From positions 328,435 to 392,434 of the forward strand of contig JAHLKD010000043.1 in the NCBI GenBank assembly GCA_025526935.1: a DNA stretch of 64,000 bases. Reading direction: 5' to 3'. The notes under the pieces were generated by a model that saw only the letters and a list, made by a program, of their open reading frames with translations, did no database searches and was not told where the DNA came from. This stretch comes from Cladochytrium replicatum (lineage: Eukaryota; Chytridiomycota; Chytridiomycetes; Cladochytriales; Cladochytriaceae). Shown here piece by piece: positions 3,264-64,000 of this stretch. How positions within the stretch are numbered: position 1 is the first letter of the stretch; every line of letters begins with the position of its first letter. The position numbers and the translations under genes were made by a program.

Positions 3264-5448
3264 ATGAAGCGATCCCTACGCTGTGCCATCTTGCTGACCC
3301 TCATCGCAATCGCTATTGTCGGAGTGCGTGGTGATGGCCGCCCACCACCTACTGAACAACGAAAATTTGATGGCCCATATATTGGCATCGACTTGGGCTC
3401 ACTATACTCCCGTGCGGCAGTGAAAAGGGGCGGGCGATTGGAAATCATCAAGGATGTCGAGGGCAACCTCGTTACTCCATCCTACGTTGCGTACACAGAT
3501 GAGGGGCCGGTAGTAGGGCATATTGCAAAGGATCTGGCGGACAATTTCCCTTCGAACACTTTCTTCGATATGAAGCGGTTGATTGGACGTACATTCGCTG
3601 AATTGGAGAGCGAATTGGATCGTTTACCTTACTCTGTTGTCGAGAAACACGGGAAACCCATGATCCAGGCAACACTAGCCAGCAATGATACATTGATTGC
3701 GCCTGAAGAGATTTATGCGATGCTATTGAGAGCGATGAAAGAGTCCACGGAAGCGCAACTTAAGGATAGTACAATCACCCGTGCAGGTAATTCCCGACGC
3801 TATAATTTTTGACTCGCGTTCCCTAATCTCTCTCATAGTGATTGCGGTTCCAGCATATTTTGACAATAGGGTTGGGGCTGCTATAGGAGCCGGAAAATTG
3901 GCAGGGTTTACCTCCATCCGGGCAGTTTGGGAACCCGTCGCCGCTGTTCAGGCGTACAATCTCGAAAACAACGGCAATGGGCATATACTGGTCTATAACC
4001 TCGGCGCTTCGTACTTGGAGGTTACAGTGCTCGGCGTCGAAAACACGATGCTCGATATCGAGATCACAGTCAAGGACGACCTCGGCGGAAAGGATTTTGA
4101 CGATCGCATCGTAGATCATTTCGCGAATGTCTTCAAAGAAAGGCACGGAAAGGATCTTCGTGAGGACGTAAATGCCATGAGAAAACTAAGGATGGAATCA
4201 GAACGGGCGAAAATTGCATTATCCACGGACGTTTCCACCCGAGTCAAATTCGATTCGATCGTTGATGGAATCGATTTTACAGAAACCCTTACCCGAGAAA
4301 AGTTTGAGCAACTCAATGCGGACCTGTTCAAACGGACATTGCGCTCCGTCGAGAAAGCTATTGGCAAAGCAGGAGTATACAAGAGCGAGATCCGCGATAT
4401 TGTGCTCGCTGGCGGCTCATCCCATATCCCGAAAGTCGTTCAACTACTGGAGAACTACTTTGACGGCAAAAAGGCCTTGAATAGCATCAATCCGGAACAC
4501 GTAGTTGCACTCGGTGCAGCAGAAGTTGGCTACGATGTTGACCATGACGATCCATCACAGTATGCTTGCTTCTTTCACGTCCCGCTCACGCTGGGAATCG
4601 AGACCGCTGGCGGTGTCATGACACCGATTGTCCCAGTCTGGACTGAGCTCCCAATGAAGAAGAAGATGATGTTCACCACTGCCGTCGTCAACCAGACTAC
4701 GGTGACGATCAAGGTCTTTCAGGGAGAGCGTCCACTAACCAAGGATAACAACTTTTTGGGTATGTCTATGGAATGTTTTTTATTTTGCAATTTCATCTCA
4801 CAGTACTTTTCAAAAGCGGAGGTTAAGCTAACTGGGCTCCCTCCTTCTCCACGTGGTGTCCCTCAGATTGAAGTCACATTCGCAAGCGATAGCATCGGAA
4901 GGAATCTTTGGGTGACTGCGCGGGATACAGCAACGGGAAACGCCGAGTCGATTACAATAAAGGAGCGTTTATCATGGGGCGAACGATACGAGCAGATGCT
5001 TCGTGACGCGAACCAACTTCCTGATAAGGATTGGACGCTGGGAAAGACTATCGTGAAGAATCACCAGGCCGGCGGGTACGACCAGACTTATCTGGATGCG
5101 CAAAAGTTTGCGCAAGAGGATCTGGTGATGCGAGAAAAGATCACGATGAAGAATCGATTCGAGGACTACGTATACAATGTCAATTCCTGGGTGAACGACG
5201 GGAGATTGAGCGGAGTGCAGAGGAGACCGATCTCCAGTGCACTTTCAAAAGCATTGCGATGGCTTGAGTCGACAGGTCTGCAAACAATCTCGAAGGAGGA
5301 GTTTATGCTCAAAAAGGTCGATTTGGAAGAAGTCGTCACCCTCTATGTGTTCGATGATGTTTGTGATATTCCGAGAAGTGAGCTCGAGATTTGGCAAGAG
5401 CGATCGCCTCTGGAAACGTTGCCAACAATACTAGCCAAGATACTGTGA
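3264..5448 (+). CDS. Divergent secretory-pathway Hsp70 (BiP-like)
   Basis: Three exons (3264-3786, 3839-4759, 4817-5448) join in frame to 691 aa. A signal peptide (MKRSLRCAILLTLIAIAIVG) precedes an Hsp70 ATPase domain with GIDLGSLYSRAAV (canonical GIDLGTTYS), VPAYFDNRVGAAI, WEPVAAVQAY and GGSSHIPKV. The substrate-binding domain is well kept (PLTLGIETAGGVMTPIVP, NQTTVTI, PRGVPQIEVTF), followed by a helical lid. Oddities: the phosphate-2 loop DLGGGT is replaced by YNLGAS, other nucleotide-site residues differ, and the C-terminus (TILAKIL) has no HDEL/KDEL. It is probably an ER luminal chaperone relative with altered or lost ATPase activity. The second intron was set to 57 nt because the earlier acceptor would bring a stop into frame. 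Confidence 0.88.
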
Positions 5449-5648
5449 ATCATATAATCGTATGGATGCGTTCGCTTCCGAGCTTTTCGAATGCTGTGGT
5501 ATTTCTAACACAGTTAAACTACTTTGCGACAAAAGAATGGATTGTTACTCAATATATGTTCCTATTTACGTATCCGGTACACTGGAATGAAAAAAGGAAT
5601 AATGGAACGAAAGAAAAAAGCACTTTCGTGGGCGGCCCCCTATCTAGC

Positions 5649-6896
5649 TTAAAATGCATAAATGGGCAACGGAAAGTCTTCGTCTTCAGAAGTCGCATCT
5701 TTGAGAAACAGCTTGGCGTACAGCGAGGTTGCCATTACTTTGGACATCTTCCACAAGACTCCCTTCATCAGCCCAACCTCCAGCTTTCCATTCGGGTGCA
5801 TCATTCGTGGGACATACGAAGGGATATCTTGGATCTTCTCCACAAAAGGCCGAAGCATTGCTTCGTACCCATCGAGAGCTCGCGCGGGGTGTTCGCCTTC
5901 CTCGAGTAGCGAGAGCTCACCTGCAAGTGTATACGCGCCCACCAACGCAAGCGACGTGCCTTTCCCGGTGATCGGAGTGGGTGCGCAGGCTGCATCGCCG
6001 ACGCACACGATCCTGCCATTCGACCATTTCCGCATTCTGATTTGCCGAACTTCTTGAAAATAGAACTCGTCGGTTGACTCCATGCCTTGCAGAATACGAT
6101 CCGTACACCACCCAGCGTCCGAAAACGTGGCTCTCACCAGACGCATCTGAGTCTCCCTGTCGCTCCTGGATGCTTGGCGCCATTGTGCCTTCTCGTTATC
6201 ATCCGCACAGTACTTTGTTAGAGCCGCGCGGATCGTGCCATGGTTGTCCGGACGAAGGAACAGGTTGCGGGACTTTGAAGCAAGGTAGATGTTCACCCAA
6301 TCGTTGTCTTCGGGTTGGCGTGGTATGGTCGAGTATACCATGAACAAGTCTTTGTCGATCACGGTCACAACATCTGCTGGGAAACACTCAGTGCGGGTCT
6401 TGGACCATTGACCGTCGGCCGCAACAACCAAGTCGAAATCACGAACGTCGCCGTTGCTCAAATGGATCGTGACGGGTGCGTTTTTTGCCTCCGGAGTGGA
6501 AAGAATTCTTAGGATGGTCGTTCCAAATAGGTACTCCACGCCTGGAAGATCTTTGGACGATTCGTACAGCAGCTCCGCAAGGTCACCCCGCATTATTTCA
6601 TGTTCTGAGGTTGGGCTGGCGTCCTTCCCTGGGATCACGGGAAACTGTGCAAAAGGTCGGCCGTTCGAATCAACCACATACGCTCCCTTCTCCGATGTGT
6701 GACGATCGAGCAGCGCATCCAGAAGATCCATCTTTTCTAGAACTTTTAACGCGCTACCATTGATATCGACATTATGGCCTTTGTTGAGGAAATGAGATGA
6801 TTTCTCGAGAACAGTAACGGTATCTCGACCGCTTTTGGAAAGGAACCAGGCGAGGGTTGGACCGGCGATTCCAGCACCGACGATCAAGACCCGCAT
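5649..6896 (-). CDS. FAD-dependent monooxygenase (salicylate-hydroxylase/UbiH-like fold)
   Basis: A single exon of 415 aa. An N-terminal Rossmann motif (MRVLIVGAGIAGPTLAWFL), a strand ending VLEKS, a DG motif (VVAADGQWSKTR) and the C-terminal GD motif (IVCVGDAACAPTPITGKGTS) define a group A flavoprotein hydroxylase. Such enzymes hydroxylate aromatic or other small molecules using FAD and NAD(P)H; the substrate cannot be told. The internal ATG at 6896 is preferred over an in-frame one at 7154. It places the nucleotide-binding motif at the very N-terminus as usual, and a TATA-like sequence lies about 60 bp upstream. It converges on the Hsp70 gene with 200 bp between the stops. Confidence 0.85.
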   Translation of the reverse strand: MRVLIVGAGIAGPTLAWFLSKSGRDTVTVLEKSSHFLNKGHNVDINGSALKVLEKMDLLDALLDRHTSEKGAYVVDSNGRPFAQFPVIPGKDASPTSEHEIMRGDLAELLYESSKDLPGVEYLFGTTILRILSTPEAKNAPVTIHLSNGDVRDFDLVVAADGQWSKTRTECFPADVVTVIDKDLFMVYSTIPRQPEDNDWVNIYLASKSRNLFLRPDNHGTIRAALTKYCADDNEKAQWRQASRSDRETQMRLVRATFSDAGWCTDRILQGMESTDEFYFQEVRQIRMRKWSNGRIVCVGDAACAPTPITGKGTSLALVGAYTLAGELSLLEEGEHPARALDGYEAMLRPFVEKIQDIPSYVPRMMHPNGKLEVGLMKGVLWKMSKVMATSLYAKLFLKDATSEDEDFPLPIYAF

Positions 6897-52063: not shown

Positions 52064-52071
52064 GCTCTCAC
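52064..52071. other. Left 8-bp target-site duplication of the hAT element
   Basis: GCTCTCAC directly precedes the left terminus and is repeated exactly after the right terminus at 59182-59189. Eight base pairs is the standard duplication length for hAT transposons. Confidence 0.9.
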
Positions 52072-52245
52072 TAAGGATCGGCGGGTTTTAGGGTCTTTCG
52101 GGTCGGGTCCGGGTCCATTGACTAAATGTACCCGACCCGAGTGCCGGGTTTTCATGGAAAATTTTCGGGTCGGATCCGGGTCGGGTATCGGGTCCAGTAG
52201 GAAAACCCTTCTCGGGTCAAAAGTCAGACCCGAGTAAAACCCGAT
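52072..52245 (+). repeat. Left hAT terminus, GGGTCGGGT-rich
   Basis: After the 15-bp terminal repeat come many copies of GGGTCGGGTCCGGGT and its complement (CCCGACCC), giving a G/C-rich, hairpin-prone end. Such motifs are common subterminal features of hAT elements and can bind the transposase. Confidence 0.75.
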
Positions 52246-52280
52246 GTGATAGAGAATCTAAAACGAAGCTATTGTTCTTT

Positions 52281-53150
52281 CTGTCCACGCGGACACTTTC
52301 CAAGAAGACGCAATATAAGTTTTGTATGTATCAAACAATTTTGCATCACAACGGACATCGAGGCATGTATTTTCTGTCCACCCGGACACTTTCTCAACTC
52401 ATTGACGTACTTCAGTTATCTCTACCCAATACAACTAACCTCTCTATCAATGTTACTAGCAATAAGATTCTGTCCACCCGGACACTTTCTTAACTCATTG
52501 ACGGTACTTGAGTGATCTCTATCAAGTACAACTAACATCTCTATCAATGTTACTAGCAATAAAATTATGTCCACCCGGACACTTTCTCAACTCATTGACG
52601 GTACTTCAGTGATCTCTATCAAGTACAGCTAACCTCTCTATCAATGTTACTAGCAATAAGATTCTGTCCACCCGGACACTTTCTTAACTCATTGACGGTA
52701 CTTGAGTGATCTCTATCAAGTACAAACTAACATCTCTATCAATGTTACTAGCAATAAGATTCTGTCCACCCGGACACTTTCTCAACTCATTGACGTACTT
52801 CAGTTATCTCTACCCAATACAGCTAACCTCTCTATCAATGTTACTAGCAATACGATTCTGTCCACCCGGACACTTTCTCAACTCATTGACGTACTTCAGT
52901 TATCTCTACCCAATACAGCTAACCTCTCTATCAATGTTACTAGCAATAGGATTCTGTCCACCCGGACACTTTCTCAACTCATTGACGTACTTCAGTTATC
53001 TCTACCCAGTACAACTAACCTCTATCAATGTTACTAGCAATACGATTCTGTCCACCCGGACACTTTCCAAGAAGTCACAACGGAAGTTCTGTAACAAACA
53101 ATTTCTACCACGACAGACCTCGAGAGCTGTGCTTTCTGTGCACCTGGACA
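52281..53150 (+). repeat. Left ~96-bp subterminal repeat array (plus orientation)
   Basis: Copies of the CTGTCCACCCGGACACTTTC block start near 52281, 52374, 52470, 52568, 52664, 52763, 52858, 52954 and 53048, with a degenerate tenth near 53139. The rest of each unit reads CTCAACTCATTGACG..ACTTCAGT..CTCTATC..TACTAGCAAT. Each block carries an inverted repeat TGTCC-ACCC-GGACA. Short frames read through the array (STRTLSQ..) but have no own start context and are not genes. The first and last units differ after the core (CTTTCCAAGAAG). Confidence 0.9.
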
Positions 53151-53187
53151 TTAGAGTCGGTAACGTTCCAGCCACACCACAGCAAAA

Positions 53188-55623
53188 ATGGACGCCGCCT
53201 TTGTTAAACCAAAGCGTAAGGCAGCGTCCGACGCAAGCCAAAGACTAGTGGACAGTCATCCGCTTGACACACGGAAGCGAAGTCTGCCAGCCCCCCAAAT
53301 TTCAGAGGCGTCCAGCGAGGGGAACATCATGCAGGACAAACGCAGACGTGTATCAGGACACTGTGGCAACAACAGCGCTCGAGAGCCGAGCTCCACATCT
53401 TCTTCCAATGACTCCAGCGAGTTGGGCCCGGCTTCTCAGCATGCACCACAGCTTCCTGCCGACGTTAGTTTTGCTGACTCTTCAGTGCGACAGGAGCCTG
53501 CAGCTGGATCAGTTCAACCATCAATGCTTTCATCAGACGCAGATGTTGATAGCATGTCGGACTGTAGAGGTAGTCGAGGCGGCATAGCGAAGGATTACTA
53601 TAAGGTTGATAATGGTCTGAGAACATGTTTGGTTGCGAAATGCAAGTGGAGCCAGAAGGTCGATAAGACGGGATCAACAAAAAACTTCCTCCGGCATCTG
53701 AAAAACCACCATGGAAGTATTGCCAGGTCGCTTGGACTGTTGGACATCGTCCCCAAGGGACAACAGACATTGAATTTCGGCTCGCAGGAGAAGGAGCAAA
53801 ACTTTGTGTTCAATCCAGACGTAGCGTGGCGGTCGATTTTGGACTGGATTGCTGCAGACAATCAGGCTTTTACTGTTGTGGAGAACGAGTTCTTTGTCAG
53901 CATGCTGAAGACTTTTCAGCCAAACTATACACCAAAGACGGCAAAAGCAGTGAAGCAAAAGGAGATGGATCTTTACGATAGGCAGAAGGAGCTCATTAAA
54001 GGTCTGATTGTTGGTTCGCCTTCAAAAGTATCAATAACAGCTGACTGTTGGACATCGAAGAACCAGATTTCTTTTCTTGGAATTACTGCCCACTTCATCA
54101 CGAAAGAATGGGAGCCGCAGGACTTGCTGCTGCAGATGATTCCGATGGTTGGAAAGCATGAAGGCGTCGCCATGGCTAGTCAGCTTGTCAAGTGTCTGGA
54201 TGAATTTGGCATGCTATCGGGTGAACGCTTATTGTGCATTACAACCGACAACGGTTCAAACAACTTTACCATGAGTGCTAAGCTGGAGACGCTCTTGGAA
54301 GATAGGGATATTGCGTGGTCTGCAGAAACTCAACACATGCGGTGTATGGCACACATTATCAATCTTGCAGCAAAGGATTTTATCGATACATTCGCGCCCG
54401 CAGGGGACACAGTCGCAAATGACGATAACTCCGGCGTTAATGTCATAAACCTTCTTCGACGGCTAGTCAGAGGAATCCGGTCTTCCCCAAAACGACGAAG
54501 CTCATTTATTGATTCGTGCCGATTTGTGAAACTGGTTCCTCTATTACCAATTATCGATGTGACAACTCGCTGGAATAGCACGTTCTATATGGTCAAACGA
54601 GCCTTACAGCTACGAGAGGCAATGGACAAAATATGCTGGATTGAAGATTCTTTGAAAGATTGGTCAATAAATCCAAAGCAATGGGAGGTCCTACAGAAGA
54701 TCCGGGATGGTTTGAGTGTTTTCGAGGTTATATCAAAGGCAATCGAAGGGTCTAGATATCCAACACTTCCGCTTGTTATTCCATTTTACAACGATCTTAT
54801 CGATCAACTGGAGGACCTAGAGGATGCAGAATTAGATGAAACTTTCACCAAAGCATTTCGAAATGCACTAGATAAGCTGAGAATATATTACTCAATCGCT
54901 AAGAGCCCGTGTTTAGCAGTTGCTACGGTACTCGATCCTCGTTTTAAGGATCAATATTATCGATTTTCAAAGGCTTGGGAGAAAGATGTAGGAAGGGATC
55001 AGGTCACCCTAGTGCGGAAAGTCTGGGAGGAATCGTATAAGTCACGGAAAATCAAGAACAGTGGTGCCGATGTTTTTGGAAACACGCCAGAACGTCGACA
55101 CGATTCGAGCGGAGCTTCCGGTGATAGACAGAAAAAAACGGACGCTGAACGCTTGAGAGCCATTAGATCCGTTTTCATCTGGCAAGAAGAGATTCCTGAG
55201 GAAAAAGATGAGCTGGATCGCTATCTTGGCGATCAGGTACTCCGCGGTATTGATTCTGATGGGAAGCCAATCAATATTATGGACTGGTGGAAGACCGTTG
55301 GAAGTGTGAACTTTCCAGCCCTAAGCCAGATGGCAATGGACTATTTAGGAATACCAGCAACAAGCGCTCCAGTCGAACGAAAGTTTTCAGCCGGGGTTGA
55401 TTTGGTACCTGCAACTCGCAACCGCCTTGCTCCAAGAACAATAAATGCGTTGATGTGCCGTCATGACTGGTTGCATCAATTGAGTGCGGAAGAACCGTTC
55501 AAAAATGATTCCCTAGATTCAAAAAGTGATGTTAGTGAGGATTTTGTAAAGGTGCATAATTTTGGCGAGGATTTTGATGTGGTATTAGAGTTGGAAGCAA
55601 CTGATGATAACCCACTCTTTTAA
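53188..55623 (+). CDS. hAT-family transposase
   Basis: A single intact frame of 811 aa. After a Ser-rich, basic N-terminus comes a BED-type zinc finger at about 137-175 (C147, C152, H170, H174). The RNase H-like core has ITADCWTSKN with D286, CITTDNGSNNF with D354 and CMAHIINLAA. The D286-D354 spacing of 68 equals that of the Hermes transposase D180-D248. The C-terminal hAT dimerisation region reads PATSAPVERKFSAGV (E730 as likely third acidic residue) then NRLAPRTINALMCRHDWL. It cuts and pastes the element; all key residues are present and there are no stops. It lies 38 bp after the last repeat unit and just before the inverted array. Confidence 0.95.
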   Translation: MDAAFVKPKRKAASDASQRLVDSHPLDTRKRSLPAPQISEASSEGNIMQDKRRRVSGHCGNNSAREPSSTSSSNDSSELGPASQHAPQLPADVSFADSSVRQEPAAGSVQPSMLSSDADVDSMSDCRGSRGGIAKDYYKVDNGLRTCLVAKCKWSQKVDKTGSTKNFLRHLKNHHGSIARSLGLLDIVPKGQQTLNFGSQEKEQNFVFNPDVAWRSILDWIAADNQAFTVVENEFFVSMLKTFQPNYTPKTAKAVKQKEMDLYDRQKELIKGLIVGSPSKVSITADCWTSKNQISFLGITAHFITKEWEPQDLLLQMIPMVGKHEGVAMASQLVKCLDEFGMLSGERLLCITTDNGSNNFTMSAKLETLLEDRDIAWSAETQHMRCMAHIINLAAKDFIDTFAPAGDTVANDDNSGVNVINLLRRLVRGIRSSPKRRSSFIDSCRFVKLVPLLPIIDVTTRWNSTFYMVKRALQLREAMDKICWIEDSLKDWSINPKQWEVLQKIRDGLSVFEVISKAIEGSRYPTLPLVIPFYNDLIDQLEDLEDAELDETFTKAFRNALDKLRIYYSIAKSPCLAVATVLDPRFKDQYYRFSKAWEKDVGRDQVTLVRKVWEESYKSRKIKNSGADVFGNTPERRHDSSGASGDRQKKTDAERLRAIRSVFIWQEEIPEEKDELDRYLGDQVLRGIDSDGKPINIMDWWKTVGSVNFPALSQMAMDYLGIPATSAPVERKFSAGVDLVPATRNRLAPRTINALMCRHDWLHQLSAEEPFKNDSLDSKSDVSEDFVKVHNFGEDFDVVLELEATDDNPLF

Positions 55624-55649
55624 ATATAAATTGTTGTTTAGACTGTTCA

Positions 55650-56780
55650 TCTGTTGAAGTACCGTCCAGGAGTTGAGAAAGCGACCGCCTGGACAGAATC
55701 CTATTACAAGTAGTATTTGTAGAGAGGTTGGTTGTACTTGATCGAGATCAGTGAAGTATCAGTGAAGTACCGTCAATGAGTTGAGAAAGTGTCCGGGTGG
55801 ACAGAATCTTATTGCTAGTAACATTATTAGAGAGGTTAGCTGTACTTGATAGAGATCACTGAAGTACCGTCAATGAGTTGAGAAAGTGTCCGGGTGGACA
55901 GAATCCTATTGCTAGTAACATTGATAGAGAGGTTAGTTGTATTGGGTAGAGATCACTGAAGTACCGTCAATGAGTTGAGAAAGTGTCCGGGTGGACAGAA
56001 TCCTATTGCTAGTAGTATTTGTAGAGAGGTTAGCTGTACCTGATAGAGATTACTGAAGTACCGTCAATGAGTTGAGAAAGTGTCCGGGTGGACAGAATCG
56101 TATTGCTAGTAACATTGATAGAGAGGTTAGCTGTATTGGGTAGAGATAACTGAAGTACGTCAATGAGTTGAGAAAGTGTCCGGGTGGACAGAATCTTATT
56201 GCTAGTAACATTGATAGAGATGTTAGTTTGTACTTGATAGAGATCACTCAAGTACCGTCAATGAGTTAAGAAAGTGTCCGGGTGGACAGAATCTTATTGC
56301 TAGTAACATTGATAGAGAGGTTAGCTGTACTTGATAGAGATCACTGAAGTACCGTCAATGAGTTGAGAAAGTGTCCGGGTGGACATAATTTTATTGCTAG
56401 TAACATTGATAGAGATGTTAGTTGTACTTGATAGAGATCACTCAAGTACCGTCAATGAGTTAAGAAAGTGTCCGGGTGGACAGAATCTTATTGCTAGTAA
56501 CATTGATAGAGAGGTTAGCTGTATTGGGTAGAGATCACTGAAGTACGTCAATGAGTTGAGAAAGTGTCCGGGTGGACAGAATCGTATTGCTAGTAACATT
56601 GATAGAGAGGTTAGTTGTATTGGGTAGAGATCACTGAAGTACCGTAAATGAGTTGAGAAAGTGTCCGGGTGGACAGAATCCTATTGCTAGTAGTATTTGT
56701 AGAGAGGTTAGCTGTACCTGATAGAGATTACTGAAGTACCGTCAATGAGTTGAGAAAGTGTCCGGGTGGACAGAAATCTG
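55650..56780 (-). repeat. Inverted ~96-bp repeat array downstream of the transposase
   Basis: The same unit as the left array in opposite orientation (GAAAGTGTCCGGGTGGACAG). Cores occur near 55791, 55888, 55984, 56081, 56177, 56275, 56371, 56469, 56565, 56661 and 56759, plus a degenerate first copy near 55690. With the left array it forms a potential stem of more than 800 bp around the transposase gene, as in foldback elements. Confidence 0.9.
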
Positions 56781-56814
56781 GGAGACTGAGTGTCACTGTG
56801 TCTGTCTGGGTAGA

Positions 56815-57050
56815 ATAGGATTCTGTCCCCCCGGACACTTTCTCAACTCATTGACGGTACTTCAGTAATTTCTATCAGGTACAGCTAACCTCTCTATTAA
56901 TGTTACTAGCAATAAGATTCTGTCCACCCGGACACTTTCTCAACTCATTTACGGTACTTCAGTGATCTCTATCAAGTACAGCTAACCTCTCTATCAATTT
57001 TACTAGCAATAAGATTCTGTCCACCCGGACAGAATCCTCTCTATCAATGT
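56815..57050 (+). repeat. Three plus-oriented ~96-bp repeat units upstream of the second gene
   Basis: After a 40-bp unique joint following the inverted array, three units (cores near 56826, 56921 and 57018) return to plus orientation. The second gene starts about 150 bp further on. Each hAT gene is thus preceded by plus-oriented units, which may supply promoter elements; that is inference. Confidence 0.85.
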
Positions 57051-57198
57051 TACTAGCCAGTTTCTTCCCTAGCTTATTATTATTTTCAGATCGGGTAGAA
57101 AACTATAGTGTCAGGGAAGTATTATAGCATACATTCCTGCAACATTCCGGCTAAGAACACCGGGCCAGTATCTTCCCACGACAAACAGTACAAACACC

Positions 57199-58881
57199 AT
57201 GCCTCGAACTACAAAGAAGCGAGCGTTAAAACAATCCAGACCATCATCTGAAAGAGAATCAAGTGCAGAACCTGTGACTGCACCTGAAACATCTCTGGCA
57301 TCGGGTTCTGAAGTGGAAGCAGAAGAAGTTGGCCTTGATGTCAAATCGACAGATGTCAAATCGACAGCTCCTTCAAAGAAACCGGCGCGACGTGGTACTA
57401 AAGGGGATGCTGACTATTTGCTCATCGACGGACTCTGTCCTGCTTCAGACATACGACTTTGGTATCGAAAATTCAAAGCGAGCGGCCACAGCTACGACTC
57501 GGAGGCCTTCATCAGCAACTGTCAAACAAATCGTGATGAATGCGGCCCAAGATTTGTTCTTCAAGGGTTGATCGACCGACTTAACTCTGACAGCAAGCTA
57601 GTTCGTCAAGCCCTGAACGAAATTCACGATGAATGCAGTGGACGAACGGAGTTCATAACAGCAGCAAACGCCTATCGTATGGAGTGCTTGAAAAGCTCTT
57701 CCTTTCCGAAGGAAACAACATTTCTGGACTTTTACAGGCGGCAGGGACACAAGTACGGCATTTACAGAGGAATGCCCGTCACTGCAAAGGTTGATGAGTT
57801 CCAAGCGACCATCAAACGAGCAGATGAGGACCGTGAAAGGACAAAACAGGTCCTCAAACAGTCAGAACGACTGTTGAACATGACAAAAGATCTTGAAGAG
57901 ACTGCAATGAACGAGAGAAGGACCCGCATCGCAGCAGAAGTGCGAGAGAAGGCTCTCATTGATGAATTGGGCAGGGCGGGTGCATTGATTCAGCACGGCG
58001 AGCACGAAGAGCTAGCAAGATTCAGGGAGATCACCGCCGCAATGGAAAGGGAGAAGCAGGCAGCTTCCCAGGAGATTTCACAATGGAAATCACGTGTGAC
58101 CGCCCTGGAGGGAGAGCTTGCTGCTCTGAAACGACAGGCTGGTCATTCAGAAGCTGCAGCACCTGCGGCGCCAACATCAACAGGCGGCCTAATAAGCATA
58201 TCGTCGGCTATCAAGGGGATTGGTAGAATTCCGAAGGTACATCGAACCAGTTCTCCAACGAGTTCCCTTGCATTGCTTAGCCTGCAGCAGCATCGTCGTA
58301 CGGCTATCCTTTTGGTGAAAGAGGTCATCCAGGGTATCTGCTTCCAGATGCATAAGATCAATGAGGTTATTTATGACCTTAAATTGCCGTCTCTTCCACC
58401 AGCAATCAAGTACGTCAATGTAAACTACGAAGTCCTCTCCCGAAATGAGTTTTTACGGCCCATATTTGTTGAATCAGACGACCGCTCAAGCCGAATATCA
58501 ACTTCAAGTAGCAGTTCTCGGAGCAGCCTTACTCTTCTTAGGGTGCACATTTTGCTCGGAAACTGGATACGGCACAATAATTCGCTAAGTACGTCTGCCA
58601 CTATCTATCGCATGTTCAGGGCATTAGTGGATGCATATCCTTCTGAGTGGCTAAGGTTCTGGACGGCATACATCGGGCATCTTTCGTCCATAACGCTCCC
58701 TGAGGTGGATTGGAAACCTTGGAAGACAGGTTTAGCCAAGGATTTCATGCTTTCAAATGACGACATTGATCGGTTCATCAGGACTGGGTTGGCGAAGGAC
58801 GTAACCAGTGGTGGATGGGACTCTGACGATATGAACCAGATACAGAAGCTGATTTGGGCTGTTCCACCTATCAACTTGTGA
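57199..58881 (+). CDS. hAT-borne second gene, coiled-coil protein of unknown function
   Basis: A single intact frame of 560 aa starting MPRTTKKRALKQSRPSSER. The N-terminus is basic and Ser/Lys-rich (possible nuclear signals TTKKRALK and KKPARRGTK). A globular block follows at about 70-190 (DADYLLIDGLCPASDIRLWY). A long charged coiled coil occupies about 195-325, then a Ser/Ala linker. A C-terminal helical part includes RTAILLVKEVIQGICFQMHK and PSEWLRFWTAYIGHL. I see no transposase, zinc-finger or helicase motif and do not recognise a family. Its position inside the TIRs, same strand as the transposase, suggests an accessory function such as DNA binding, transposase partner or regulator. Alternatively it is a captured host gene. 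Confidence 0.8.
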   Translation: MPRTTKKRALKQSRPSSERESSAEPVTAPETSLASGSEVEAEEVGLDVKSTDVKSTAPSKKPARRGTKGDADYLLIDGLCPASDIRLWYRKFKASGHSYDSEAFISNCQTNRDECGPRFVLQGLIDRLNSDSKLVRQALNEIHDECSGRTEFITAANAYRMECLKSSSFPKETTFLDFYRRQGHKYGIYRGMPVTAKVDEFQATIKRADEDRERTKQVLKQSERLLNMTKDLEETAMNERRTRIAAEVREKALIDELGRAGALIQHGEHEELARFREITAAMEREKQAASQEISQWKSRVTALEGELAALKRQAGHSEAAAPAAPTSTGGLISISSAIKGIGRIPKVHRTSSPTSSLALLSLQQHRRTAILLVKEVIQGICFQMHKINEVIYDLKLPSLPPAIKYVNVNYEVLSRNEFLRPIFVESDDRSSRISTSSSSSRSSLTLLRVHILLGNWIRHNNSLSTSATIYRMFRALVDAYPSEWLRFWTAYIGHLSSITLPEVDWKPWKTGLAKDFMLSNDDIDRFIRTGLAKDVTSGGWDSDDMNQIQKLIWAVPPINL

Positions 58882-58989
58882 TTGCTCAGTGGAGTTTTGT
58901 TTCTTTTTACGATAGTGTTTCTAAAATACACACTGTCCACACAGACACAAAGTGTTCATGTAAATATCCGTGGTCTAACTCAAAATTCA

Positions 58990-59181
58990 ATCAATCCTCT
59001 CCTGGGCAGCAAAAACCCGGCGGGTCAGGGTCGGGTACGGGTTTCAACCACTTCGGGTCCGGGTATTCCCTTTGTACCCGTCAGTGACCCGGCGGGTCCC
59101 CAGACAAACACGACCCGACCCAAAGGGTTTGGTGCGGGTCGCCACTGAAACCCGGACCCGACCCGGACCCGCCGAACCTTA
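58990..59181 (-). repeat. Right hAT terminus, GGGTCGGGT-rich
   Basis: It holds many copies of GGGTC, CGGGT and CCCGACCC, ending ACCCGCCGAACCTTA. It mirrors the left terminus in composition and its last 15 bp are the terminal inverted repeat. Confidence 0.8.
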
Positions 59182-59189
59182 GCTCTCAC
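59182..59189. other. Right 8-bp target-site duplication of the hAT element
   Basis: GCTCTCAC, identical to 52064-52071, immediately follows the right terminus. Confidence 0.9.
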
Positions 59190-59230: not shown

Positions 59231-62200
59231 ATGCAATCTAGCAGCAGTGATGTTCCTGCAATGGACTGCAATGAGTTTGTTCAACCAGGTATCACTGAAA
59301 CGACTCCTAAATCTGCCCCTGGTGAGCTTCTCACTACATGTGAACATACCCAATCTCGACCTTTCTCACTAAAGGGCTCATGTTTTTTGAGTAGCTGGGC
59401 CAATCTCAATCAGGTCCATGTTAGACCAGCTGAGCAACCGCATCAAGGAACCCAGGATGGAGTGGATCACCAGAGAAGATGGCATGCTTGTGTGCACGCT
59501 TTGCACTGGCAAGGACCACAGGGAATACAAGGAGAGAGATGCTTTGAGGAAGCATTGTCGAGCTTCCCATCCCGCCAAGGAAGGGTTGGGCACAAATCCT
59601 AGAGTTCATACAGAGGAGTTCCTACGCGACGCGTTCAAGGTTGCGGGCCTCCCGGCTGCTGGCCAGTTGACATGGTTCTTCGCATTCTGCAAGGCACTGT
59701 CAAGAGAGATAAGAACAACCTCAACAATGACAGTTACGAAGAGGACGTCGCCAACGTACGTGTAGCACCCCTTCACAATGAGAACCCTGTGAACAACCCT
59801 CTGATTCAGAGCGCCATAGCTACAGGAAACCTTAGGCGTAAGCTTCCTTCATCAGGACTGCTGAAAGCATCTCACCTCTATCATTTCCTATCCTCCAGGC
59901 ATAGCCTTGGATTTCTTCATAGCAGAAGAGTTTGGTGTGCTGGTTTGTATCAGCTGTGGCATTCTCGTGGACGCGTCTTCATGCAGGGCCCATGTCCAAA
60001 AGTACCACAGTCAGGTCGACAGGAGCACCCGCCTGATTGCTTCAAGAGCACTTTTGAATCTAAACGTGGTTAACCAGCTTACACCGCTGTGGAACAACAA
60101 GGTCATTCTGGATCATATAGACAGAGACAACAAGCTTGCCACATTTACCCCAATCCCAGGAGTCTGTGTACAGGATGGTTTTCAGTGCCGACGCTGCGGC
60201 TATGTGTGTCGCACCTTATCTACCTTTCAAAACCATTGTTGCAAGTCCAATCCGGCAGCAAGAGGTACCTCTCCAAAGCAGGTCAAAGTCCAGAGTATTG
60301 TCATGCCGTACTATGGACTTCACGGTTACTGGGTCGTGCAAATGGCTCCTCTGGCACCCTATTCCCCTGATCCATCCTTGCAGCTCACTGAAATGCAGAA
60401 GGCAAGCCTGCAGATGCTGCTTGCTGACGCATTCACCTCTGTCCCTGCCTTGAAGCTATCTGAAGAGCTTCCTCCCTGGATTCTTGGTTGCGACTTTCAC
60501 CATGTGGATCCTAGGCACAGGAGCGGCCAAAAGATCAACGAGCGCATCACGTGGAAAGATGTTGTCAGGGAACAAAACCAGGACATTGGCCTGGGGTTCA
60601 ACCGCAAGGAGCTGGGGAAGACTATGGTTGCCTACCACAAGGCACTGCAATCACGGATCATGCGAATGCCCTTCATGGTCAGGCAGGAAATCATGAAGCC
60701 CAGGTTTGATCAGGAGCAGCAAGTCAACGAGAAGCAGAAATTCCGACAGCTTCGGGATGCAACACTGTCACGCTATGCACAGACATGGACCTGTGTTCTG
60801 TGGCTGACGATCTTGGTGTGGAAGCGCATTATAGAGACACCCTTTGTGCAGATCAGCAGCTCATTGGGAGCATCTTTGGAGCAGTTTGCAAGAATGTTGA
60901 AGCAGAAGGTTGGAAACTCTGGACCTGAAGAACCAACAGGAATACCACTGTTTGATCCAGTAGGGGATCAGGGGCTAGACGTGGCACAGCTGCTGTCTGG
61001 CGACACCAATCATGAGGACGAGGTGGACTCTGAAGAAAGCTCCAGTGAGTCAGGCGACGAGGATCAGGAAAGTCCAGTGGGGCCAACACATCTTCTCCCT
61101 GTTGGATCTGCGGCAGAGACAGAAGAAGAACTTTTTGCAGCTCTGCTTGCTGTTACAGAGTCTCTCTTCCAAGCAGAAACTGTCATATCAACCATCCCCG
61201 AAAAGGTGTTCAACAATCCCCTTTTCACCTGGTGGGTGATTGATTCGAGAGATGTGCTGGGGGCCTGGAGACCTGCCAACAGCGTGTCAAGGACCGGAGC
61301 TGCATTACTCAGATGGGTGTATGTCACAGGTCTGCACCGGTTTTGGCAGGATTGCAAAGTAACTGGAAGTGTGGAGCCAGAACGTTTAATGCAGATTGGA
61401 CACTTTACCTCTCGCTTCAATAGGCACACAATGTCAGGGAGGATCGGGGTAACGTTAGCTTGGATCAAAAAGGTTGCCAGCCAGACAATTGCCACCAATC
61501 GCATGCAGTTTGACTCCCAGGCATGTGCGTACCTGCTGGCGAAGGATACATACTTCAATATGACCACCATAGGGCATGCTTACAGTACCTTAATCAGGGA
61601 CCTCAGTCTACTCATGAAGAAGATCGCTTATCCTCTCCAGCCAGATCAAGAGACATGGTTAACTCTATCGTGGCTCATAGAAAATGCTCCCGATGTTACG
61701 TGTGAGACAGCGTCAGACTATGAGTGGGCGCAACACACAACTCTCTCCAGTACGCACCTGCAGCCAGCTTTGGGAGGCATATTGGCATCCTGGGTTAGAA
61801 ATATTGGGCCAGTGACGGATCACCATGATCTCTGGCAGCAGCATGGACAGCTGCTGGAATGGAACAAGAAGATTGCAGCAGCGGTTCTGCTTGGATGTGG
61901 AGCCCCGCCTCGTCTCACGGACCTAGTTGCTCAGAATGCAGTCAATTCTTCTGCAGTTCCTCGCTCTGTTTATCATAAGAATGATCGTCTGGTGCTGGTG
62001 AGCTACCGGTGCAAGACAGAACAGATAAAGGAGGAGCGGACAGTGGTTCCGCGCTTTGTTCCAAGGTCACTGGAGAGGCTGCTCATCTTCCACCTCTTTA
62101 TAGTGCGGAGGTTGCTGTTCAGTACATTCAAGTGGGTGCAGAAAAAGACATTCCCCGAAGAATGTAGGCGATCCTTGTTCCTAACAGTTATTCCAAGCCG

Positions 62201-62246
62201 GAATGTTAATAACATTCGGACGGACCGTCCGACGCGAATTTATTAA
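59231..62246 (+). CDS. Zinc-finger (OrsD/DUF3505-like) protein of a RecQ-linked mobile element, 3' end cut off
   Basis: Likely exons begin at ATG 59231 (MQSSSSDVPAMDCNEFVQPG) and splice near 59320-59426 to a C2H2-type finger (VCTLCTGKDHREYKERD..ALRKHCRASHP). An acidic exon follows, then the large exon from about 59895 with a second finger (LVCISCGILVDASSCRAHVQ) and a third Cys pair (FQCRRCGYVCRTLSTFQNHC). The rest contains an acidic linker, TGAALLRWVYVTGLHRFWQD and GCGAPPRLTDLVAQNAV. This order resembles the N-terminal half of fungal proteins that pair OrsD-type fingers with a RecQ-like helicase. The frame runs into the right ~515-bp repeat at 62182 and stops at 62246 with no helicase. It is therefore probably truncated. 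The hAT element lies 41 bp upstream of the start. Confidence 0.6.
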
Positions 62247-62697
62247 ATGCGGACGGACCGTCCACCTCGAATTTATTAGCCACGGACGGACCATCCAACC
62301 CGTTTTTATTTGGCGCGGACAGACCGTCCAACCCATTTTTATTAACCATGGACGGACCTTCCAGATGCAATTTATTCGGCTTCAACTGTAATTCATGCTA
62401 CCTCAATCTCTCTTGTAGCTGGTTTTTTCACTAAGTCTTTTCATTTCATGGGCCCAGCGATGCTGTAGGGGCGAGACTCCTCTGATTTCGTGGGCTGGAG
62501 CATGCTGCTGGAGTAGAGAACTGATTCTTTGTGTTTGTTTGTCCAAAATCTCCACCAACCTTTCACCGCGATAACAAGCTTCTCAGCCACAACAGGAGAT
62601 ATCCTTGTCAGGAAACCAGAGGCAAGGCCAGACCACAGGGTCTTCCTGCTATAGATAGGGGATCCCACCTCCCGCTCCCTGTCCATACCACAGCTTC
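62182..62697 (+). repeat. ~515-bp direct repeat, right copy
   Basis: The second copy of the repeat at 51490-52004, same orientation, with its own minisatellite of GGACGGACCGTCC units. It begins inside the reading frame of the zinc-finger gene. After 62697 the two loci differ completely. Confidence 0.75.
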
Positions 62698-63439
62698 TCG
62701 AGGGTATTTCCAAACAGCGAAGTCCAGAAAGTGGCATCCATGATCTGAGAAAGTTTCGGACAGCAGAGTAACATCTTCTTGAAGCTGAAAAAGACCACGG
62801 CAAATTCGAGCAAGCTCTGTAAACTTTTCCGTATTTTGTAGATATAGGAAGAGAAGGGACTTCATCGCTTATGCTGCATGACAATGGGTGGATGTGGCAC
62901 GAAGTAGGCAATCTTTTTCAAGTAAAGGCACGGAATTTCCCTCCTGTACGATAGGGTCAGTTAAAAGACGGACAGATTCAGACTGAACCGCGAACCAATT
63001 CCGACTCAGACAACTCAGAACGGCGCAATGTCCGCGGAATATGGATAGGGTCTGACATCGATTGCATCTGCACAGTGTAGAAGTTGATTTGGGTTCGGGT
63101 GAATGTAGAGGAAACACGGCAGTTTCAATGTGGAGTAGCTGTTCTTCTGTCCTTGCTCTTGCACCCGTATTTTTGCAACCCGTCACTGAGCCATGTGGCT
63201 TGGCTTTTTTCGAGGTCCCGCGCAAACTTTGGAGTTGGTTTCCGGCTCAACGGTACCCGTCCGCCTCTGGCACTCCTTACAACGCTAATAGAGGATGTGC
63301 ACCGCTATTGGTGTGCCAAGTTTGGCAAGCTGAAACAGATGCACAACGATTCCACTTTGAGGGTCACGTGCATTTGCGAGGTCCGTACCTCGACAACCGC
63401 CACACGACTGATCGCAATCAATTAGTAATCGCACTTAAT
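62698..63439. other. Unassigned sequence with decayed-looking minus-strand coding pieces
   Basis: Minus-strand frames (for example 62608-62865 with AMKSLLFLYLQNTEKFTELA, and 62869-63225) have plausible amino acid composition but no recognised domain and no clear splice links. They may be a remnant of a host or element gene interrupted by the repeat. I cannot support a gene model. Confidence 0.3.
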
Positions 63440-63512
63440 CGCTCTTTCAGGGGTTCGAACCTGCGTTCTTTTGCTTACAGCGCTGCGCCATAACCAATTG
63501 AGCTAATAGAGC
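63440..63512 (-). repeat. tRNA-like sequence (probable tRNA pseudogene or SINE head)
   Basis: 73 nt with acceptor arms GCTCTAT and AAAGAGC (six of seven pairs), box A-like TTAGCTCAATTGG and box B GGTTCGAACCC. The anticodon arm (GCAGC, loop containing TGTAA, then GCAAA) does not pair. It is therefore unlikely to be a working tRNA; a Tyr (GTA) origin is possible. It aligns with the more decayed copy at 1078-1150. Confidence 0.5.
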
Positions 63513-63590
63513 TGATCAAAACTTTTAGGTTTCTTGCTTCTATTTCGGCATATAAGTCGCACACTCCATCACCATCTTGTGAGGCCATTT

Positions 63591-63640
63591 GGTTTTGTGT
63601 TTTGTTATGCATTGTATGTTCAAAATAAATATTGTTAACA
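63591..63640 (+). repeat. Dispersed repeat, retroposon 3'-tail-like copy C
   Basis: It reads TTGTTATGCATTGTATGTTC then AAAATAAATATTGTTAAC, the same block as copies A and B near the left end of the window. It lies 80 bp from the tRNA-like sequence. Confidence 0.45.
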
Positions 63641-63644
63641 AAAA

Positions 63645-64000
63645 AATTGGCCCTAATTGCCATTGATTATTTTGTGACATTTCAATTGTCTATTGCAATC
63701 TATGAATTGTTCACGTTCCTTTATTTATTGTTCATTGTTCATCATTAACAATCGATTTCTATTTTTCCTCCATCAACATTAACGATTGACTTCTATTCTT
63801 CCTCCTCTATCGTATACTCCTTAATGTTCTTGCACAATTGCCCATCATTATTTTGTACGATTTCAATCGTCTTGTAATCATTATTTTGTACGATTTCAAT
63901 CGTCTTGTAATCTATGAATTGTTCATCTTCCTATGTTAATTGTTCATTGTTCATCATTAACTATTGACTTCTATTCTTCCTCCATTATCTTTAATTTCGT
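63645..64000 (+). repeat. AT-rich degenerate tandem repeat at the right edge
   Basis: Blocks such as TTGTTCATTGTTCATCATTAA, GACTTCTATTCTTCCTCC and CAATCTATGAATTGTTCA recur with a spacing of roughly 200 bp. A 33-bp piece (ATTATTTTGTACGATTTC..) is duplicated exactly in tandem at about 63846-63911. No gene was seen. Confidence 0.55.

Follow-up and report, generated by a model that had tools for sequence, protein, structure and literature searches.

The locus described here raises the question of whether a hAT transposon can carry a second gene that is its own and, if so, what that gene might do; hATs are usually treated as one-gene transposons. The window, by which we mean the whole 64-kb stretch of DNA that was analysed, covers positions 328435-392434 of contig C43, and as C43 is 392434 bases long, the window runs to the 3' end of the contig.

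The element occupies window positions 52072-59181 (7,110 bp) and is a real hAT cut-and-paste transposon. Its inverted ends, TAAGGATCGGCGGGT on the left and TAAGGTTCGGCGGGT (read inverted) on the right, agree at 14 of 15 positions, giving the short terminal inverted repeats (TIRs) of a hAT, and GCTCTCAC lies directly outside both ends, at 52064-52071 and 59182-59189, as an exact 8-bp duplication. Two open reading frames are open on the + strand, one of 811 aa at 53188-55623, which has a hAT C-terminal dimerisation domain, and one of 560 aa at 57199-58881, here called ORF2. A sequence-only reading had claimed a complete hAT with near-identical 15-bp inverted ends and an exact 8-bp duplication, with an intact transposase and a second intact gene on the same strand, and it was right on each of these points, to the base in its coordinates. 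The features of the locus are as follows.

52064..52071, no strand: target-site duplication GCTCTCAC, left copy (sequence; present once at all five empty sites fetched)
52072..52086, + strand: left terminal inverted repeat TAAGGATCGGCGGGT (sequence; 280 left ends in the genome)
52087..52230, + strand: left subterminal region rich in GGGTC/CGGGTC (motif counts)
52372..53067, + strand: left array of 96-97-bp tandem repeats with one TGTCC-N4-GGACA per unit (TRF)
53188..55623, + strand: hAT transposase, 811 aa (PF05699, Hermes match, at least 56 genome copies)
55758..56775, - strand: right array, 10.5 units of the left-array 97-bp repeat, inverted, with palindromes at 55790-56772 (TRF)
56814..57031, + strand: short direct array of 2.2 units ahead of ORF2, oriented like the left array (TRF)
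57199..58881, + strand: second gene, ORF2, 560 aa (at least 78 copies; purifying selection on internal branches)
58934..58947, + strand: near-palindrome TGTCCACACAGACA with one mismatch, at roughly the same distance from the right end as that of the palindrome at 52282 from the left end
59010..59166, - strand: right subterminal region rich in GGGTC/GACCC (motif counts)
59167..59181, - strand: right terminal inverted repeat, which reads TAAGGTTCGGCGGGT along the minus strand (sequence; 301 right ends in the genome)
59182..59189, no strand: target-site duplication GCTCTCAC, right copy (joined-flank matches and empty sites)

The first gene encodes the transposase. Its protein is matched by PF05699, the hAT dimerisation domain (E=2.2e-20), and by the Hermes transposase (E=2.3e-12); the hAT-like RNase-H profile PF14372 scores 23.6 bits, under its cut-off of 27. 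Between residues 283 and 734 the protein contains the strings D, D, CxxH, RW and E, which are candidates for the hAT transposase motifs; in the alignment with Hermes the E block is good, the first D block is weak and the second D block was placed by eye. A C..C..H..H-like string is found at residue 147, and the Pfam search gave no match to the BED-type zinc finger that hAT transposases have near the N-terminus. From what is known of the family, the transposase is expected to work as Hermes does: it would bind the ends, and probably the GGGTC-rich subterminal repeats as well, and the element would move by excision and insertion.

To judge how far the element has spread, its ends were searched for in the 50.5-Mb genome. 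The left end, searched as 22 bases with up to 2 mismatches, gave 280 occurrences, and the right end, searched as 18 bases with up to 1 mismatch, gave 301. The reversed-pattern controls for both ends gave 0, so the end pattern is beyond chance. The transposase was found at 56 or more places with 97-100% identity, 44 of the 56 without stops, and PF05699 matches at no fewer than 150 places. An exact 8-bp duplication, as in other hATs, flanks 24 of the 37 copies in which both ends could be read (the window copy, 6 of 10 others, 13 of 20 and 4 of 6). Two further copies have one mismatch in the duplication and 11 have unlike flanks, among which mispairing is possible since part of the sets of 20 and 6 end pairs were joined by the nearest end alone; the unlike flanks may well have arisen by recombination between copies. 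When the flanks of the window element were joined with a single GCTCTCAC, the joined sequence was matched with 98-99% identity by at least 40 places in this genome (175 first-look candidates, 40 of them scored). Empty sites with a single GCTCTCAC were one of the checks proposed on the letters alone, and all five that were fetched are uninterrupted with one GCTCTCAC each; these are paralogous places in the same genome rather than the same locus of another strain. Recent spread, one part of the earlier suggestion of recent and possibly ongoing activity, is borne out.

The joined-flank places also tell where the element landed. A contig end is no more than 20 kb away from at least 25 of the 40 (5 are farther from one, and 10 could not be told), so the target of the hAT is probably a subtelomeric repeat. 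The repeat beside the element, at window 59231-64000, is matched at 40 or more places and contains an ORF at 59907-62246, with a TTG start, that encodes an OrsD domain (PF12013, E=2.7e-13). Its spacing is regular, 1061 bp in C86 and 1562 bp among four places in C53, and it is possibly a telomere-associated repeat gene family.

Flanks were seen to be shared between certain copies. One of the copies with unlike flanks is C8: its element and 3' flank match C23 (99.9% over 6,691 bases), and the 5' flanks diverge exactly at the element end. These two copies, L016 (C23:464200-471700) and L017 (C8:7300-14800), also have the same internal deletion, a pattern that suggests element-mediated rearrangement. 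L052 (C11:538485) and L054 (C11:617187) have an identical 12-base 5' flank, CGTACTGGGAGT, and unlike 3' flanks.

The second gene is less easily placed. ORF2 has no significant match in Pfam, where the best hit is the DUF7310 coiled coil (E=0.072), and none in the PDB at E up to 1; no DNA-binding or other domain was recognisable in either, and no relatives were found in the viral contigs or the bacterial and archaeal genomes searched. Residues 194-321 are free of proline and contain heptad-like windows. In the genome, ORF2 is found at 78 or more places with 96-100% identity, 55 of the 78 without stops. A same-strand hAT C-terminus lies within 6 kb upstream at 50 of the 78 listed ORF2 places, versus 1, 2 and 0 of 78 in controls shifted by +20, -20 and +40 kb, which argues that ORF2 belongs to the element. 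Conversely, ORF2 lies within 8 kb downstream of 26 of the 56 listed transposases, 26 being a lower bound. Other copies with both genes, which the sequence-only reading had proposed to look for, are thus seen in the host from either side, and the claim that the second gene belongs to the element is upheld by this linkage together with the selection described below. An older ORF2, with 91.8% identity and four stops, lies inverted beside a young copy at L020:2802 (within C13:163949-166054), which gives the family a deeper past in this genome. A copy at 91-92% identity already has ORF2 attached to the right part of the element seen here, and it shows a synonymous excess.

To examine selection on ORF2, we aligned 44 copies including that of the window, dropping copies with less than 90% coverage. 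Changes were mapped by parsimony on a FastTree tree that has no support values and many near-zero inner branches, and for the null these changes were redistributed according to base and CpG context. The 66 changes on internal branches comprise 34 synonymous, 32 nonsynonymous and 0 stop changes, versus 20.0, 42.2 and 3.9 under the null (P=0.0003). On the terminal branches the 439 changes (131 synonymous, 283 nonsynonymous, 25 stop) are close to the null of 122.3, 290.6 and 26.1 (P=0.18). When the tree was rooted on the most divergent copy, the contrast between internal and terminal branches was reached in 0 of 3000 simulations; it persisted when that copy was left out (P=0.0047) and when CpG transitions were left out (P=0.0017). 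Parsimony mapping could be blurred by recurrent mutation, near-zero branches and gene conversion. The result indicates that the inner branches of ORF2 are under purifying selection, and the terminal branches look neutral; a gene that the spreading lineage needs, and that is freed from constraint once a copy has inserted, would leave such a pattern. Tests made copy by copy, on the 18 of 28 ORF2 rows with at least 12 differences, are weaker, with a synonymous excess at P<0.05 in 4 of 18 and a ratio above 0.92 in 6 of 18. The transposase, taken as a control, is a weak one: 18 copies gave 12 internal changes (5 synonymous, 7 nonsynonymous; P=0.13), and 21 copies, with three added, gave 10 (5 and 5; P=0.047). 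All considered, we are highly confident that the family is a selected hAT element with two functional genes, a cut-and-paste transposon that has recently spread to high copy number.

After insertion, copies appear to decay neutrally, with many C-to-T changes at CpG. CpG transitions make up 169 of the 439 terminal-branch changes of ORF2 (38%; copies among L009-L039 and L080-L103), and such CpG-biased decay suggests cytosine methylation of repeats by the host.

According to the sequence-only reading, copies with the same ends and no second gene would count against the two-gene element. Such copies do occur: C23 and C8 are without element stretch 4577 to 5777 and C1 without 5945 to 6377, each loss taking part of ORF2; C24 is without the first part of ORF2, with no match between about 4704 and 5943; and L037 lacks ORF2 entirely, together with part of the transposase. 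The loss is thus partial in the first four and total in L037, but the mapped copies are internal-deletion derivatives and not an ancestral one-gene form. C1 (C1:1018245) and C23 (C23:465000) combine a stop-free transposase and a broken ORF2 with an exact duplication. The reverse case is provided by transposase-free elements, of which L023, L032 and L039 retain an intact ORF2, with exact duplications at L023 and L039 (the 3' flank of L032 was unread), and L035 and L036 have ORF2 broken or cut. The deletion in L023 joins points inside 97-bp repeats (near element positions 413 and 4847) and leaves the outer ends unchanged. The short derivatives L023, L037, L038 and L039 all have exact duplications and just 3-9 palindromes; from these and from C1 it follows that the long arrays or an element's own ORF2 are not needed in cis.

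The noncoding part of the element is rich in repeated motifs. The outer 250 bases contain 9 CGGGTC/GACCCG motifs at each end (7 CGGGTC and 2 GACCCG at the left), and the transposase ORF contains none and ORF2 one. The motif TGTCC-N4-GGACA occurs in perfect form 23 times in the element and 0 times elsewhere in the 64-kb window, mostly in the 97-bp arrays before both genes and behind the transposase, with an extra palindrome at 52282 just outside the left array. With one mismatch allowed, the window count rises to 27, of which 25 fall within the element; shuffles lead one to expect 2.1. The 97-bp repeat is found in equal orientation 121 bases before the start of the transposase and 168 bases before that of ORF2. 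In the 13 other long copies fetched, some of which carry deletions or are truncated at a contig end, the palindromes number 17-30, and seven short derivatives have 2-9.

Given this layout, we tentatively propose, short of calling it probable, that ORF2 is an accessory factor without catalytic activity, which probably dimerises through a coiled coil. It would bind the TGTCC-N4-GGACA arrays ahead of both genes and serve there as a transcriptional activator, an anti-silencing factor or a transposition helper, much like VANC for VANDAL elements or TnpA for En/Spm. A dimer is suggested because it suits the symmetry of the palindrome and the proline-free, heptad-like windows of residues 194-321, and co-occurrence is the sole tie of the protein to the palindromes. 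Since the CpG-biased decay suggests methylation, a VANC-like anti-silencing role would be a reasonable sub-hypothesis.

ORF2 could instead be a repressor, a self-limiting regulator of transposition, with the ORF2-only derivatives serving as dampers. Three of the five mapped transposase-free, ORF2-bearing elements do keep it intact (L023, L032 and L039, not L035 and L036), which might be read in this way; however, an intact ORF2 is to be expected in young deletion derivatives even if it had no role, and a repeat common to both genes fits activation equally well. We consider such a repressor unlikely.

Still less likely is that ORF2 began as a host gene which one hAT copy captured through transduplication and has been carried since as a passenger without function. 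Capture of host genes by transposons is established, and ORF2 has no transposon domain known to Pfam or the PDB; C1:1018245 and C23:465000, with broken ORF2 and a stop-free transposase, still have exact duplications, and 14 of the 18 single-copy selection tests were non-significant. On the other hand, the internal branches of ORF2 took no stop where 3.9 were expected, 55 of the 78 listed copies have stayed free of stops, and the 91-92% copy already had ORF2 on the same right part with its synonymous excess. The selection on inner branches thus disfavours a passenger, despite the mixed copy-by-copy tests. That ORF2 and the transposase are two elements, one nested in the other, as the identical 97-bp repeat before each gene (as if two units had been joined) and the ORF2-only elements with intact ORF2 (L023, L032, L039) and exact duplications (L023, L039) could suggest, is so improbable that we reject it, because the two-gene arrangement recurs at 26 or more of the 56 listed transposase copies and the copies fetched have a single pair of ends, while the ORF2-only L023 arose by deletion between 97-bp repeats with its outer ends kept.

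How does the accessory-factor proposal compare with known elements? Ac/Hermes/Tol2-type hATs have 8-bp duplications, short TIRs, a dimerisation domain, subterminal short repeats and a single transposase gene. The present element resembles them in its 8-bp duplication, short TIRs, dimerisation domain, Hermes-like transposase and subterminal short repeats, and we know of none of this type that combines a conserved second gene with palindrome arrays of 97-bp units. Outside the hATs, En/Spm TnpA and MuDR mudrB are second, non-transposase transposon genes.

The earlier inference that a second gene by itself would define a distinct hAT lineage was too strong, since a two-ORF hAT group, Shanks/hATv, has been published (PMC10138859). 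Shanks, from Tisochrysis lutea, is about 6,768 bp long with 26-bp TIRs and 7-bp duplications, and its ORFs of about 793 and 580 aa have no Pfam or HHpred predictions; the Repbase group hATv comprises 16 elements from three haptophytes (PMC10138859). Shanks has 1,429 annotated copies, 30 of them potentially autonomous, and strain-specific insertions point to recent movement (PMC10138859). The likeness lies in two ORFs (811 and 560 aa here, about 793 and 580 there, close but not equal), in length (7,110 bp and about 6.8 kb) and in high copy number, and it is one of gene number and size. The termini differ, with a 7-bp duplication and 26-bp non-identical TIRs in Shanks versus 8 bp and 15 bp here, and so does the coding part: for both Shanks ORFs Pfam and HHpred gave no prediction, and the transposase here has a clear PF05699 match. 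The accessible portions of PMC13317346 and PMC8504770 mention no two-ORF hAT, and the literature searched (open-licence papers, by simple word matches; other reports may exist) yielded no two-gene hAT in a fungus. A two-gene hAT is already known from haptophyte microalgae (Shanks/hATv).

VANC of VANDAL MULEs recognises short noncoding motifs in related elements and causes hypomethylation (PMC13317346). VANDAL/VANC, En/Spm TnpA and MuDR mudrB are like the present element in that a transposon has a second, non-transposase gene; they belong to other superfamilies, and the likeness is one of gene make-up, the role of ORF2 being putative. The specific likeness to VANC consists in the motif arrays and the CpG-decay signature alone, with binding and demethylation by ORF2 putative. 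By this analogy it is possible, if doubtful, that we are dealing with a two-component hAT, in which a transposase is accompanied by a selected dimeric protein that would recognise the TGTCC-N4-GGACA arrays and either counter CpG methylation or switch both genes on.

If true, this second protein would be to a hAT what VANC or TnpA is to its own element, and its origin may be a separate one. Branch-wise selection indicates that the second gene matters to the element, and the 23 perfect palindromes beside it offer a possible cis target, so that the layout of ORF2 and palindromes opens the role of second genes in hATs to direct tests. The same two-gene solution may have arisen separately, or been shared, in distant eukaryotes.
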